Source: an uncultured Pseudomonadales bacterium (GTDB lineage Bacteria; Pseudomonadota; Gammaproteobacteria; Pseudomonadales; Azotimanducaceae). Taken from it: a stretch of 64,000 bases of DNA. The DNA is taken from NCBI GenBank assembly GCA_943787425.1, contig CALSMJ010000001.1, positions 1,291,271-1,355,270 on the forward strand, written 5' to 3'. Each line of letters starts with the position of its first letter. Position 1 is the first letter of the stretch. Below are positions 5,858 through 56,145 of this stretch, piece after piece. The position numbers and the translations under genes were made by a program. Under the pieces are notes generated by a model, which did no database searches, had not been told where the DNA came from, and saw only the letters and a program-made list of their open reading frames with translations.

Positions 5858-7774
5858 TCAAGAAACAGTCAGCCGACTTTGATGCGCCCGAAATCGAGCA
5901 AGCAATAGCGCAAGCACGATCAGCCCAGCCCCGGCTGCATTGCCGAGGGCATTGGAGAGCGCAAGGCCCTGTAAAGCAATATCAGGCAGCGCAAGCAACA
6001 AGCCGCCCAGACCCAACAGCCAAGACGCCATCCGTCCTGGGTCTCCAAGGCGCGGTAAGTGTCGTTGAGCGGACCAGGCAATGAGCAAAACGCCCAGCAA
6101 GGCCTCTAGGGCCGCTTGGACAATGCCCTGCCAGGGACCCTGACCAATCAGCGCAGGATTCAACACAAACAAAAACGGTACCAGATAAATCGCAACCCCA
6201 AGCCGCATTGCTTCAAATCCGGTCGCCACAGGATTGGCGCCTGAAATCGAAGCCGCGGCAAACGCACCCAAGGCCACCGGTGGCGTAATAAAAGACAACA
6301 TGCCCCAATATAAAATAAACAGATGCACGGCCATGGGGACCAGGCCACCGTCAATTAAAGCTGGCGCCAGCACAATGGCAAGAAACACATAAGCCGCCGT
6401 GACCGTTAAGCCAATTCCCAGGATAAAACTGGTCGCCGCACCCATTAAAATAAGCACCCCCGTGCTATCACCTGCAATGAACAACAATTCGTTAACCAGC
6501 GTGCCAGACAATCCTGTGACCGACAAAGCCCCGACAATCAGGCCCACCGCCAGCAGGATTGCCTGCAGCTCGATGAGTAACTTCCCAACCGCAGCAAGCC
6601 AGGCAGCCCAGTCCGCAACCGCCATCCGGCCCTGCCGGAACTGATTGATCACGAGAAGCGAGGCGGTGGCTGCCCAAGGCGCCAGGGTCTCTTGTTGCAG
6701 CACCAGCAAAAACACAATGAGGAGGGCAAACGACAGAATAAACACCCAGCCCTCGCCTAGAACAGCGCGCAGGCGGGGTAACTCTGATTCCGGCAAGCCC
6801 TCAAGCCCGTGCTTGCCCGCATACGCGTCTAACTGCGCGTACAACGCAATAAAGTACAACAGCGAGGGCATCAACGCCGCCAAAGCGACCTGGTAATACG
6901 GGATTTCCAAAAAAGTGGCCATGATAAAGGCGGTTGACCCCATGATCGGTGGCAACAGCACCCCACCGGTTGAGGCGCAAGCCTCAACGGCTGCCGCCGA
7001 CTTTGCAGAAAACCCCTGCCGACGCATCGCCGGAATCGTGAGCTGCCCGGTCGTCATGACATTGGTGATGACACTCCCGCTCATAGAGCCCATCAGGCCG
7101 CTCGACACAATGGCAACTTTGGCCGCCCCACCCCGCACGCCGCCCAGCAGCGCAAACGCCAAGCGTATAAAGAAGGCCCCACCCCCGGTATGTTGCAAGG
7201 TCGCGCCAAACACTAAGAACCCAACCACCAAGTTGGCAAAGGCACGAAACGGCAACCCGACGATGCTCTCAATACTCATCGCGTGATAGCTCGCCGTTTC
7301 TCGAAAGCCGATGGCCATCCCAGAGATCATCAGCGGCATTAAATCGGCAAAAAGGGGGTACATCGAAAACACCAGCGCAATGCCAAAGAGCACCCACCCG
7401 GTCACTCGGCGAACCGCTTCTAACACCAACAGCCAAACAACACTGCTGGCCACAATGGCGTGATCAGGCGCCAGAAATTCCCAACCCTCATTGGCAATCG
7501 GCTCGGCATGGCGCAACAACCACAGCGGCGCCAGAAACGCGCCCAGTCCTAAGACCGCGTCCAACGCCGGCCAACGACTTCGGTAAATGAGAAACACGCC
7601 CGGCAGCAATAATGCGATCAGTGCGAAGTAATATTGGGTCTCAAGACGAATCACAACACTTAGTAACGGGCTCCCAAATAGCCGTAACTGATCAATCACT
7701 AAAAAGCAGGCAAGGCCGGCCAAAATGGCGGTCAGCACCTCGGAACGTCGGATTTTCGGTGCGGGCACATTCAT
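5858..7774 (-). CDS. TRAP transporter permease, fused small (4TM) and large (12TM) subunits
   Basis: A 638-residue, almost wholly hydrophobic protein. The DctM-type core is clear in segments such as GGVRGGAAKVAIVSSGLMGS, the glycine-rich MMTTGQLTIPAMRRQGFS and STGGVLLPPIMGSTAF, and FITPPVALGAFAAASI. The N-terminal part supplies the small-subunit helices, as in the fused permeases that pair with TAXI-type binding proteins. The ATG at 7774 overlaps the TGA of the binding-protein gene (ATGA), which decides the start and implies translational coupling. It should import an organic acid or amino-acid-like solute with an ion gradient; the substrate is not evident. Confidence 0.93.
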   Translation of the reverse strand: MNVPAPKIRRSEVLTAILAGLACFLVIDQLRLFGSPLLSVVIRLETQYYFALIALLLPGVFLIYRSRWPALDAVLGLGAFLAPLWLLRHAEPIANEGWEFLAPDHAIVASSVVWLLVLEAVRRVTGWVLFGIALVFSMYPLFADLMPLMISGMAIGFRETASYHAMSIESIVGLPFRAFANLVVGFLVFGATLQHTGGGAFFIRLAFALLGGVRGGAAKVAIVSSGLMGSMSGSVITNVMTTGQLTIPAMRRQGFSAKSAAAVEACASTGGVLLPPIMGSTAFIMATFLEIPYYQVALAALMPSLLYFIALYAQLDAYAGKHGLEGLPESELPRLRAVLGEGWVFILSFALLIVFLLVLQQETLAPWAATASLLVINQFRQGRMAVADWAAWLAAVGKLLIELQAILLAVGLIVGALSVTGLSGTLVNELLFIAGDSTGVLILMGAATSFILGIGLTVTAAYVFLAIVLAPALIDGGLVPMAVHLFILYWGMLSFITPPVALGAFAAASISGANPVATGFEAMRLGVAIYLVPFLFVLNPALIGQGPWQGIVQAALEALLGVLLIAWSAQRHLPRLGDPGRMASWLLGLGGLLLALPDIALQGLALSNALGNAAGAGLIVLALLLARFRAHQSRLTVS

Positions 7775-8958
7775 GGTGCTGACCAAACCGGGTCAAAGCC
7801 GGCGGCTGTCAGGTACTGCGCGCGTTGTGACATCCAAGCCGCATCCCAAACCGCGCGATCTAGGATCGCATCCCCCTGCGCGGCAATCAGTGCGGACCAA
7901 GCCTTAGCAAGCACCGCTTGCCGACGCAGCAGCGCATCTTGATGAGCCTGCATGGGCTCCGTCCAAAGCCCCATCGATTCAAAATAAGCAATCGCGCCAG
8001 CATGATAGGGCACCAGCCACTGAAACTTTTGCCGATCCATTTTCCAGCCCATCGAACCCGGGTCCGCCCCTTTAAACTGATCAAAACCAAGATCGATGGC
8101 GCGGGTCAAGGCGTAGACCAGACCCGCGTCCTGGGCCGCAAGGGTTGTTAAGATTGGATAGGGGTAATTACCACCCTCATGCGGCTCGGTCACGCTGATC
8201 CCCGCGCCCCGAGTTGCAATACTTGGCTGCAGGTAGGGCGCAATTTGGTTGGCGCGCTGCCAGCAGGCAGGGTCATCATGCGGCATGGTCAGCCACCGAA
8301 TCCCTTTCGGGGAGGCTTCAAGCCGACGGGTTGGACCCGAAACCGTCGTGGCATAGGCCGTGTCAATTTGGCCGGCAATCATGGCGTTCCACATTGCGCC
8401 ATAACCCGGAAATTCAACGCGCTGAACATCGGCCCACGTCAGCCCACCGCAAGCCAAGATTGCCTCGGTCGAGACATTCAGGGCCGGCGCACCCAAGACG
8501 TACGGCACGCTTTTTGATCTTAGATCCGCAATGCGCTCGATCTCGGAATTCGCGGCCACCGCAATCCCTTGATTGGACAGACCCAACGACATCATCACCA
8601 GCCGGACCGGAATCGGGCCCCAACGGGGACTGGTAAACTGAAAAACGCCTTCTTGGGCAAAGTAGGTCGACACACCATTGGCCGAAAATTGCACTCGATT
8701 GACCATAAGCGGTAACAGCCGAGAAACGTCATTCTTACCGGGAATCACTCTTAATGTGACGCGATGCTCGTCTTTGAGCATTTTGGCAATCCCGACGGCT
8801 TGGTTGTAACCGGTGGTGCCCAGGTTATACGCGCTCCAAGCCATCGCCCGCGGCAGCTTCGGCTCAGCGCTCTGAGCGCTGAGGCTAACGCAAACAACCA
8901 ATAACAAACCAACGCTTCTTAGGCCAAAATTCAAGCTCTTGATTAAGTGGATCAACAT
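7771..8958 (-). CDS. TAXI-family TRAP transporter solute-binding protein
   Basis: About 395 residues from the ATG at 8958, chosen because it places a basic n-region directly before a hydrophobic stretch ending AQSAEPK, a good signal peptide; an ATG at 8991 is also in frame. The mature protein shows TAXI marks: an early LGTTGYNQAVGIA segment, QFSANGVSTYFAQEG, the LRSKSVPYVLGAPALN loop, an IAGQIDTAYATTVSG region, and a late LVPYHAGAIAYFESMG. It binds the solute in the periplasm and delivers it to the fused permease encoded immediately downstream, with an ATGA overlap. Confidence 0.92.
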   Translation of the reverse strand: MLIHLIKSLNFGLRSVGLLLVVCVSLSAQSAEPKLPRAMAWSAYNLGTTGYNQAVGIAKMLKDEHRVTLRVIPGKNDVSRLLPLMVNRVQFSANGVSTYFAQEGVFQFTSPRWGPIPVRLVMMSLGLSNQGIAVAANSEIERIADLRSKSVPYVLGAPALNVSTEAILACGGLTWADVQRVEFPGYGAMWNAMIAGQIDTAYATTVSGPTRRLEASPKGIRWLTMPHDDPACWQRANQIAPYLQPSIATRGAGISVTEPHEGGNYPYPILTTLAAQDAGLVYALTRAIDLGFDQFKGADPGSMGWKMDRQKFQWLVPYHAGAIAYFESMGLWTEPMQAHQDALLRRQAVLAKAWSALIAAQGDAILDRAVWDAAWMSQRAQYLTAAGFDPVWSAP

Positions 8959-9036
8959 GGTCAAGTCATCTTTTAACGCTGTGGTTGTCATGCAATAAAA
9001 AGCCGCTGCTCGATCTATTCCGCCTAAGCTGCGCTC

Positions 9037-9094: not shown

Positions 9095-9436
9095 ATGGCC
9101 AAAGGCGTTGCTTGGTATTATCTAAGAAAGGGCTGAACCACGTGCGTCAAAGCATCCAAGTTTTTGGAAGCCCGTTCAATCGACATCAAAGAAACCGTGC
9201 TCGCGAGCAAGAAGTTGAGCGCAGCAGACTGCCCCGGTATCACTGAGGCAGCCTCAACGCTGGTTGCCATGAAAGGTAAAAAGGTGGAATCCTTCGATCT
9301 TAAAAAGGGCCTGAGCGATGAGGCCAAGGCCGCTATGCTCGGCCCAACCGGCAACCTTCGAGCCCCAACCCTGAAAGTCGGCAAGACCGTTTTAGTGGGG
9401 TTTAACGACGCGGTGTTCGCCGAACATTTTAATTAA
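9095..9436 (+). CDS. ArsC-like thioredoxin-fold protein with in-frame TGA, candidate selenoprotein (UxxC)
   Basis: Starting at the ATG at 9095, preceded by AAGGGAG six bases upstream, the frame reads 13 codons (ending YYLRKG), then TGA at 9134-9136, then TTCVKASKFLEAR and onward to TAA at 9434-9436, 113 codons in all. If TGA is read as selenocysteine the redox motif is U-T-T-C, exactly where ArsC/Spx/glutaredoxin-fold proteins have CxxC or CxxS after beta-1. The rest fits the fold: a helix after the motif, a GKKV/DLKKG middle, and GNLRAPTLKVGKTVLVGF with the cis-proline 'RAPT' strand. ArsC-related selenoproteins with this layout are known to me as a family; this assignment rests on recalled patterns. 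A SECIS-like hairpin follows the TGA. No sel genes lie in the window. An alternative is a Cys-to-stop substitution or sequence error. Confidence 0.82.
9152..9171 (+). promoter_or_regulatory. Putative bacterial SECIS stem-loop
   Basis: Inside the coding sequence, TCCAA (9155-9159) pairs with TTGGA (9164-9168) around a four-base GTTT loop; beyond an A-A mismatch, GC (9152-9153) pairs with GC (9170-9171). The apical loop begins with G, 24 bases after the last base of the TGA. Bacterial SECIS elements recognised by SelB typically have a short stem, a G in the first two loop positions, and a loop about 16-37 nt from the UGA; all three hold here. Confidence 0.65.
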
Positions 9437-9500: not shown

Positions 9501-11063
9501 TCAATTTCCATTTTTGACGGCCTGCCACTCGCTTGGGTTTCTGCCCATGCAGCTGGCAACGGCACTCCAATGCGGTCGCCCATTACCTTTCACAGTCGTT
9601 TCCCGAACACAATCAGCGCGCGATTTTCCTTGCGCACAAACCCCATTATTGAGATGCATACCCGACCCGCACTGACGACATTGACTCGGGTCTGCGGCCA
9701 GCGCGCCGCCCACGCCGCAACGCGCATTCTGCACACACCGGCCCTCGTACAAGGTTTGATTCTCGGAACAAGTACAGCTCGCCAAATCCGCCGACAATCG
9801 ACCACCATCACAGGCAACCGGTTTCACGCATTGACCCTGAACCAGGCCCATACCCGACCCGCATTGACGACATTGACTCGGGTCTGCGGCCAACGCGCCG
9901 CCCACGCCGCAACGCGCATTCTGCACACACCGGCCCTCGTACAAGGTTTGATTCTCGGAACAAGTACAGCTCGCCAAATCCGCCGACAATCGACCACCAT
10001 CACAGGCAACCGGTTTCACGCATTGACCCTGAACCAGGCCCATACCCGACCCGCATTGACGACATTGACTCGGGTCTGCGGCCAACGCGCCGCCCACGCC
10101 GCAACGCGCATTCTGCACACACCGGCCCTCGTACAAGGTTTGATTCTCGGAACAAGTACAGCTCGCCAAATCCGCCGACAATCGACCACCATCACAGGCG
10201 ACCGGTTTCACGCATTGACCCTGAACCAGGCCCATACCCGACCCGCATTGACGACATTGACTCGGGTCTGCGGCCAACGCGCCGCCCACGCCGCAACGCG
10301 CATTCTGCACACACCGGCCCTCGTACAAGGTTTGATTCTCGGAACAAGTACAGCTCGCCAAATCTGCCGACAATTGACCATCAACACAAGCGACCGGCGT
10401 CACGCATTGATCCCCTAACCGTTGCGCTGGGGCGGAACATACCGTTTTAGCTGGTGCCGATTGGGCCTTAGGGGATTTGGTTGCACCCACCGATGTTGGG
10501 CTACTCTGAGATTGAGCCGATGCTCCTTCACAGCCATGCCTAAAATTTACCGTAAACACAACGATCGATTCTGTGTTAAGTGACCAATCCTTCAGCATCC
10601 CTTGACGCTCGACGCGATCGAAGACCGTCTGAGCGACCTTAACCGCTTCCATGCCATCGGTCTCGGAGGTTGCGCTCACCCTGATCGACAGCCCGTCACA
10701 CGGATTACCCCCCGCTTGCGACCGAGCGACCGGATCCGATCCACAACTCTTTCGATTGAGATTGGCATCAATTCTTTCAACCTTCATAAAACTCGAGGAC
10801 GGATAGCCCACTTTGTCAGCAGACCCAGCATCTAAATCTGACCAAGTCACTGCGCAAAAATCGAGATTTTTTTCTGCCGCTTTCATCCGATAAAACCGCT
10901 CAAACTCAGCGACCTCGGCCAAAAACGTATCGGCTGCCGCATCGGTGATATAGCCCTGATAGACCGGTAACGAAATACTGCCCAAAACCGCGAGTAAAAC
11001 CATCACGATCATGAGTTCGAGCAGCGTGAACCCTCGCGCAACACGCGCCCTAAGCATCATCAA
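9501..11063 (-). CDS. Type IV pilin-like protein with cysteine-rich 64-residue repeats
   Basis: The 520-residue protein begins with a class III prepilin signal: RVARGFTLLELMIVM, giving cleavage before Phe and a Glu at +5, followed by the hydrophobic alpha-1 helix (VLLAVLGSISLPVY). Residues ~40-190 resemble a small pilin globular domain with Cys residues. After a Ser/Ala/Gln-rich linker come four near-identical 64-residue repeats (~220-475), each with eight cysteines, including CTCSENQTLYEGRC and CRQCGSGM; then a ~45-residue tail. Normal major pilins are 130-180 residues, so this is a pilin with a long disulfide-rich distal extension. It overlaps the preceding gene by 14 bp. Likely exported, assembled or membrane-anchored, with an adhesive or binding role inferred only from architecture. 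Confidence 0.85.
   Translation of the reverse strand: MMMLRARVARGFTLLELMIVMVLLAVLGSISLPVYQGYITDAAADTFLAEVAEFERFYRMKAAEKNLDFCAVTWSDLDAGSADKVGYPSSSFMKVERIDANLNRKSCGSDPVARSQAGGNPCDGLSIRVSATSETDGMEAVKVAQTVFDRVERQGMLKDWSLNTESIVVFTVNFRHGCEGASAQSQSSPTSVGATKSPKAQSAPAKTVCSAPAQRLGDQCVTPVACVDGQLSADLASCTCSENQTLYEGRCVQNARCGVGGALAADPSQCRQCGSGMGLVQGQCVKPVACDGGRLSADLASCTCSENQTLYEGRCVQNARCGVGGALAADPSQCRQCGSGMGLVQGQCVKPVACDGGRLSADLASCTCSENQTLYEGRCVQNARCGVGGALAADPSQCRQCGSGMGLVQGQCVKPVACDGGRLSADLASCTCSENQTLYEGRCVQNARCGVGGALAADPSQCRQCGSGMHLNNGVCAQGKSRADCVRETTVKGNGRPHWSAVASCMGRNPSEWQAVKNGN
9661..10428 (-). repeat. Four tandem 192-bp repeats inside the pilin gene
   Basis: Copies begin at 9661, 9853, 10045 and 10237 on the plus strand, exactly 192 bp (64 codons) apart. 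The internal copies are almost identical at nucleotide level, while the copies at both ends have diverged. The frame is kept in every unit. Such similarity points to recent duplication or ongoing homogenisation, so copy number could vary between strains. Confidence 0.93.
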
Positions 11064-54758: not shown

Positions 54759-56145
54759 GAAGGGCAGCTCCCTGATTGGCTGGTTCAAGTGGGGTTTGTT
54801 GCGGACGGGCGTTGAGCACGGCACCGCCGGCTGATGCTGTTGGCAACGAGGCAGGCGCGACCTTAAACCGGGCATGGGGCAACGTCAGCTTAAATTCCGC
54901 GCCGCCGTCTTTGGGGTTACTGGCGACGAGGGTTGCATCGTGATTGCGCGCGATCATGGCGCACAGTGCTAAACCCAAACCGGTGCCGCCAGTACGGGTG
55001 GTAAAGTAGGGGTCAAAGATCCGGCTCAAGGCGTCTTTTGCGATGCCCGGGCCGTTGTCCCGAATACTCATTTCAAGACCCGAGTCAGTGATTTCGGTGG
55101 TCACGGTTAACACCGCGTTGGGCGTCACCTGTAGGGCATTCTCGGCGATCGCCACCAGTGCCGAGAGCAGGGCTTCCTGGTTGCCTTCGATCAAAACGTC
55201 CTGAGTTAAACCCGTTTCCTGCCAGGCGCCGTTATGTTGCGCGAGCAAGGGCGCAAGCGACACTTTCAAAGCTTGCAGGAGTTCAAACAGTGAGCAGTCT
55301 GCGTCCTGGGTTTCGCCGCCCTTTACAAACTGCAGGCTGTCATTGACGAGGGATTCTAAGTGCTTGAGTCGGCCTTTGACTTTATGGGTCACCTCAAGCC
55401 GCGCCGCATCATCCAATGTCGGCCGCTCCATCGCGCCCATATACAAAAGCGCCGACGATAAGGGGGTTCGAATTTGATGGGCAAGGCGCGCCACCATTTC
55501 GCCCAGCGCCGTTAGGCGTTCACTGCGATGGCGCTCTTCTTGGGCGGCATAGGTTTCGGTCACATCGGTGATCAAAACCACCTGATCACCGTAACCGTCG
55601 TTCAATTCTGTCGACAGTGAAATCCGGCGACCCGAGCGCAACACCATCTGCGTGCCATCGCGGCTGATAGAAGCCGCGCATTCGCCGATGACGCTTAAAA
55701 AATTCATATTCAGCAGCGGCTCCCCCAGAAGATCCGCCGCGCCTGGGTTGGCTAGGATAATCGTGTGATTTTGGTCTAACACCAAAACGCCGCCGGGCAG
55801 GGCATCGACCAGCGCCGTCAAACGATGGGCCAGGCGTTCTTTTTCGGCCAGCTCTTGCTGACGCGCCGCCCGCGCTGAGGATAATTCTTGGGTTAGCTCG
55901 GCAACCCGAGCCTGCAGATCCGCGTAAGAGACCTTGAGCGAGGTTGTGAGACTGGCAAAATCACTCTCGAGCAGCTCGTCTAGGTTGATCCTTTCTGCCG
56001 CCTCCACTGCGGCTACGGAATCCACGCGTTCCGATTCCGCTAATTGCAGCGCGATGATGTCGGAGGCATCCAAGAGCTCGGCCTGCAGGACAGGCGACTT
56101 GAGGGCGTCGAGGTTGCTCGATTCTTGAAAGGTTTGGCTTTGCAT
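54751..56145 (-). CDS. flrB: Flagellar sensor histidine kinase FlrB/FleS
   Basis: 464 residues without membrane helices, so cytosolic. A coiled coil (~residues 75-110) leads into a PAS domain (LVDALPGGVLVLDQNHTIILANPGAADLLG), then HisKA with VARLAHQIRTPLSSALLYM (phospho-His) and an HATPase domain with DNGPGIAKDALSRIFDPYFTT (split: DNGPGI, FDPYFTT) and GTGLGLALC. It phosphorylates FlrC. Transcribed from a sigma-54-type promoter just upstream. Confidence 0.94.
   Translation of the reverse strand: MQSQTFQESSNLDALKSPVLQAELLDASDIIALQLAESERVDSVAAVEAAERINLDELLESDFASLTTSLKVSYADLQARVAELTQELSSARAARQQELAEKERLAHRLTALVDALPGGVLVLDQNHTIILANPGAADLLGEPLLNMNFLSVIGECAASISRDGTQMVLRSGRRISLSTELNDGYGDQVVLITDVTETYAAQEERHRSERLTALGEMVARLAHQIRTPLSSALLYMGAMERPTLDDAARLEVTHKVKGRLKHLESLVNDSLQFVKGGETQDADCSLFELLQALKVSLAPLLAQHNGAWQETGLTQDVLIEGNQEALLSALVAIAENALQVTPNAVLTVTTEITDSGLEMSIRDNGPGIAKDALSRIFDPYFTTRTGGTGLGLALCAMIARNHDATLVASNPKDGGAEFKLTLPHARFKVAPASLPTASAGGAVLNARPQQTPLEPANQGAALHG

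Follow-up and report, generated by a model that had tools for sequence, protein, structure and literature searches.

A catalogued ArsC-related selenoprotein family in an uncultured Pseudomonadales bacterium: a gene with an in-frame TGA that is very probably read as selenocysteine

The question raised by this locus is whether a TGA triplet lying in frame near the start of a small arsC-like gene is read as selenocysteine (Sec) or as a stop. The DNA analysed (the window, a stretch of 64,000 nucleotides) belongs to contig C1 of an 8-contig, 3.26-Mb bin that is 93.66% complete. On the + strand, the gene runs from an ATG at 9095 to a TAA that ends at 9436, and translation of the window sequence gives a product of 113 residues, MAKGVAWYYLRKG-U-TTC-VKASKFL..., in which the TGA (9134-9136) is codon 14 and the sole in-frame stop ahead of the TAA, from which it is separated by 99 sense codons. 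Residues 14-17, UTTC, form a UxxC motif whose second Cys is encoded by TGC at 9143-9145 (residue 17). All the elements described in an earlier note on this DNA are present, namely the ATG, the 13 codons, the TGA, TTC-V-K and the long open frame, with the TGA in the first position of a CxxC-type motif. That note had also placed the start proposed by ORF callers at 9164, and the standard ORF listing does indeed begin this gene at a TTG there, so that gene finders would lose the active site; the present reading corrects an annotation that would omit the active site of a selenoprotein gene.

Conservation of the TGA was followed through a set of 38 genomes, our own included. A gene of the NF041106 type (see below) scores over the family cut-off in 17 of these, with exactly one in-frame TGA in each, and in one further genome (G012) the copy is frame-broken, falls short of the cut-off and has three TGA triplets by that reading. 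Read as DNA, all 18 family-type genes carry the TGA in the corresponding codon (18 genomes, our own and the G012 copy counted), the second Cys of the motif is likewise Cys in 18/18, and a more distant homologue, L112, also has TGA at this codon. Seven further genomes of the 38 contain distant, stop-free relatives only (23-31 bits). The earlier note had proposed aligning homologues with Cys at codon 14, and Cys occupies the aligned place in these seven (7/7, by eye), which we read by eye as YffB-like. The family gene and the hairpin described below occur together in 18 of 25 genomes of one uncultured family-level group, i.e. the selenoprotein is kept across much of that group. In a class-wide sample the family was found at E <= 1e-10 in one of 369 genomes, and as this was our own the sample is uninformative on Cys forms of the family; a search of viral contigs for relatives of the gene found none. 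A scan of the whole window for open frames broken by a TGA that has a Cys close by returned 15 candidates including this gene, and the other 14 looked by eye like shadow frames. One of them, at 54885 on the - strand, has 489 open codons after the TGA and a Cys two residues on, and is probably a shadow frame.

A candidate bacterial SECIS hairpin is located at 9152-9171 (+). It has seven pairs and one 1x1 mismatch: the pairs G9152-C9171 and C9153-G9170 are followed by an A.A mismatch and then by UCCAA-GUUU-UUGGA, which gives an upper stem of 5 bp and a GUUU loop. The earlier note was right as to the presence of the hairpin and the G in first position of the loop, and the gap between the TGA and this G is 23 nt. 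The hairpin is within the loop, stem, G and spacing limits given for bSECIS elements in an excerpt of PMC13188914 (loop of 3-9 nt, stem of 4-16 bp, G in the first two loop bases, spacing of 16-37 nt), but its local fold, at -6.8 kcal/mol, is slightly weaker than the energy limit stated in the same excerpt (at or below -7.5 kcal/mol). A 57-nt piece from the TGA folds at -9.0 kcal/mol, a value that includes other pairs and is ordinary (z -0.54; 51/200 shuffles as good). The local fold was matched by 1/200 shuffles of a 26-nt piece, 12/200 shuffles fold as well as a 37-nt piece containing the hairpin, and 17 of 19 sequences have local energies between -6.8 and -7.3 kcal/mol. An Rfam search of the window returned nothing. 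The shape of the hairpin alone proves little, because a comparable one follows 221 of the 2421 TGA triplets on both strands of the window (about 9%).

Comparison among relatives is more telling. Within the hairpin, Ser is TCC in 17/17 genes, Lys is AAG in 18/18, Leu is TTG in 18/18 and Phe is TTT in 16/18. When synonymous entropy was analysed in 17 of the 18 genes (the frame-broken G012 copy was left out), codons 19-24 formed the lowest six-codon window of the gene, at 11% of expected, and 1/20,000 permutations was as low, a figure obtained from 65 usable columns with related rows whose kinship was ignored. In L112 the loop-closing pair is changed from A-U to G-C, with the stem and the G at the start of the loop kept; this compensatory change happened once, 24/500 shuffles do as well, sliding the structure by -1 column also gives one, and within the 18 closer genes alone no covariation was found. 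Judged from the sequences, it is this comparison (the invariant TGA, the frozen codons 19-24 and the L112 pair) that lifts the feature above chance, and the frozen synonymous sites and the compensatory pair favour the reading of the hairpin as a bacterial SECIS element.

The predicted protein matches the NCBIfam model NF041106 (ArsC_rel_Se_1, 'ArsC family (seleno)protein') over profile positions 1-107 of 107 with 106.2 bits (cut-off 85), in keeping with the earlier assignment to an ArsC-like, thioredoxin-fold family. Other models were matched below their cut-offs: Pfam PF03960 ArsC (15.8 bits, gathering cut-off 24), Pfam Glutaredoxin, PRK10853 (YffB; 14.7 bits, cut-off 121) and TIGR01617 (Spx/MgsR; 32.1 bits, cut-off 75.05), so that the protein is no member of the last. 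Among proteins of solved structure, SACOL0876 (2m46) and Spx are nearest in sequence. Structure prediction from eight sequences, with Cys substituted for Sec, gave five models, the best with a mean pLDDT of 87.5 and the remaining four with 37.6-63.7. The best of the five predicts the UTTC site at the junction of strand 1 with helix 1, where the helix begins, a placement we use as support only; structure matches to the model have TM-scores near 0.5, with an rmsd of at least 6 for the Spx/ArsC matches. The RAPT segment is the same in all eight aligned sequences and is RSPT in one (G016) of the 17-gene set.

Searching the genome for the selenium machinery, as the earlier note had proposed, recovered part of it. 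A tRNA-Sec with a UCA anticodon is located on contig C6 at 96744 (L001 1502-1594) and is called tRNA-SeC(tca) by ARAGORN; Infernal gives it 45.8 bits, short of the 47 that Rfam requires, and cmscan at gathering reports nothing. Paired by hand, its acceptor and T stems together comprise 12 pairs (8/4 or 7/5), the first of them G-U, and a minor 8/4 species of tRNA-Sec is mentioned in a passage of the review PMC7609411. The identical 93-nt tRNA is present in 6/6 relatives checked, three of which (G002, G007 and G008) also have selA and selB, the selB of G008 being in two pieces. Hits to RF01852 below its cut-off are partly other tRNAs: 17 of 24 fetched loci were given to ARAGORN, which called 10 tRNA-Sec, four Ser, two Leu and one Lys, the last on the other strand of an over-cut-off hit. 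SelD is encoded at C6:89267 (L019 3053-5275; 256-259 bits, cut-off 125), where it follows a pyridine nucleotide-disulfide oxidoreductase domain (TIGR03169, 399 bits) in a fusion protein, and this fusion also scores 454.3 bits with the fusion_not_SelD model, which is below that model's cut-off of 700. Searches of the same genome found no selA and no selB over the cut-off of 242.25, the best hits for the latter, at 188.2 bits, looking like EF-Tu. Absence of selB, which the earlier note would have held against a selenoprotein, is thus literally the case in the bin, but tRNA-Sec and SelD are present and selA and selB occur in a close relative.

That relative, G010, is the closest by gene, with an ArsC protein 99% identical to ours and DNA around the gene 90% identical, and it has selB and selA over cut-off at the end of its contig C3. 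The same 19.4 kb contains ComEC over cut-off, and genes for which lolC/E, LolD and hisC are the best families, each somewhat under cut-off. Against our genome the 19.4-kb stretch gives two short matches only (269 and 38 query bases); its first 14.7 kb has long matches in G004 and G012, patchy matches in G014 and one short match each in our genome and G006. LolC is matched at 86-100% by three genomes and at 54% by G014, and the only long LolC matches in our genome are to an adjacent pair at 25-26% identity, probably paralogues, since G004, G010 and G014 have such pairs in addition to the lol locus. Most Gram-negative bacteria cannot do without LolCDE, yet the LolC-bearing stretch is absent here, so that a gap in the bin is the plain reading. 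Because the selAB neighbourhood is missing as a block from a bin that is 93.66% complete, we infer that selA and selB are likelier to have been lost to an assembly gap. Across the family-level group, 19 of 25 genomes have a selB that passes the cut-off; selA is found in 12 of 24 genomes searched (our own counted in both). One or other gene is at a contig end in G010, G012, G016, G017 and G018 and interior in other relatives, and the stretch may therefore assemble badly; neither a look for inverted repeats nor the sequence around selAB in G004 yielded anything. One result counts against the gap: G006, which is 96% complete, retains the TGA gene and tRNA-Sec, and selA, selB and the LolC-bearing neighbourhood are absent from it.

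The bin without selA and selB, and the same absence in G006, would also fit a recent loss of both genes, after which the TGA acts as a stop and the gene is dying, with tRNA-Sec and SelD lingering. Such a loss would have to remove the whole 19.4 kb, including the genes that read as lolC/E, lolD, comEC and hisC, and leave as LolC only the 25-26% pair whose counterparts accompany the lol locus in G004, G010 and G014; moreover, the tRNA-Sec is intact and the selAB-bearing G010 has a protein 99% identical to ours, and we consider a dying gene very improbable. It is a shade less probable still that selA and selB are truly gone, here and separately in G006, and that UGA is recoded without SelB or by a replacement enzyme. 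Were that loss true, selAB would have gone and left behind an intact 12-pair tRNA-Sec, a constrained TGA/SECIS gene and, as seen in this species, SelD.

Little room is left, too, for decoding of the UGA as another amino acid, such as Cys by a selC-like opal tRNA-Cys, to which we would give a slimmer chance than to either kind of selAB loss. tRNAs of this type with UCA anticodons are published, according to the review PMC7609411, and the acceptor/T branch here is short. However, the base before CCA is G, as against the U73 given for tRNA-Cys in that review, relatives that possess selA and selB have the identical tRNA, and this disfavours the opal tRNA-Cys; SelD is present, and by eye neither cysS nor selB is among the ORFs of at least 90 aa in the 19 kb around the tRNA. 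A substitution or sequencing error that created the TGA beside an incidental hairpin is the least credible reading of all, to which we attach practically no weight: comparable hairpins do follow 9% of the TGAs in the window, but the triplet is shared by 18/18 genes of 18 separate genomes, which rules out error or chance substitution, and synonymous sites are frozen over the hairpin. The earlier interpretation of the gene as a selenoprotein gene is supported by family, conserved TGA and constrained hairpin, and the gene very probably encodes selenocysteine at its in-frame TGA.

We are therefore highly confident that the product is a small ArsC/Spx-like selenoprotein, likely a redox enzyme, with Sec inserted at UGA codon 14 by way of SelB and the hairpin. 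The conserved TGA, the constrained hairpin, the family membership, the tRNA-Sec and SelD of the bin and the selA and selB of near relatives are observed, and from them we infer Sec insertion in this organism. Our working model is that SelB bound to the hairpin would deliver Sec-tRNA(UCA) to the UGA, yielding a protein whose redox site, U-T-T-C, opens helix 1 and which is predicted to be, most likely, a cytosolic thiol/selenol:disulfide oxidoreductase. A two-residue selenol/thiol redox cycle would be its natural mechanism: Sec14 would attack the substrate, Cys17 would resolve the intermediate, and thioredoxin or a low-molecular-weight thiol would reduce the enzyme.

The selenoprotein gene stands alone, divergent from TRAP transporter genes at 5858-8991 (-) that encode a DctM permease and, adjoining it, an NMT1_3-type substrate-binding protein (7771-8991, -); we take this transporter to be of the kind labelled 'TAXI'. 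The binding protein adjoins the gene in 11 of 18 loci, all 11 in our own genus, in which it is kept beside the gene; several of the other loci are short. The link between transporter and selenoprotein gene may be one of synteny only. At 9501-11063 (-) there is a gene for a type IV pilin-like protein with an N_methyl motif and a Cys-rich C-terminal part, within which 9657-10410 consists of 3.9 tandem copies of a 192-bp unit (98% match).

The family to which the gene belongs has already been catalogued, and the gene is in all likelihood a genuine selenoprotein gene of a known kind, useful as annotation. An 'Arsenate reductase-like protein, NF041106, UxxC' is an entry in the catalogue of PMC13188914, and an 'Arsenate reductase-like protein, COG1393, UxxC' is one in that of PMC9312934, where it is credited to the GOS study (PMC2398784); a row of the GOS table reads 'Arsenate reductase 2, UxxC, 42 selenoproteins' and presumably represents the same family as our gene. 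Two 'ArsC-like' selenoproteins were counted as early as 2006, in the survey PMC1794560. Given these descriptions the gene is less novel than the earlier note implied; it opens no new mechanism and will not surprise a specialist. A search of a paper library found no paper on selenocysteine selenoproteins in metagenome-assembled Pseudomonadales.

Set beside known systems, the protein shares with NF041106 members an over-cut-off family score and the UxxC motif, and nothing notable differs; what is added is a new sequence from a Pseudomonadales-type bin. The GOS 'Arsenate reductase (ArsC) 1' (pfam03960) is likewise an ArsC-like selenoprotein, but its motif is UxxS and not UxxC. With Spx/ArsC-related proteins (TIGR01617; PDB 6ghb, 1z3e and 2m46) there is a nearly full-length profile match and a weak fold match, and here Sec takes the place of the first Cys. 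In the seven distant relatives of the order that resemble YffB-type ArsC reductases (PRK10853), Cys occupies the Sec position and, by eye, the second Cys three residues on is absent, whereas the UTTC protein has one.
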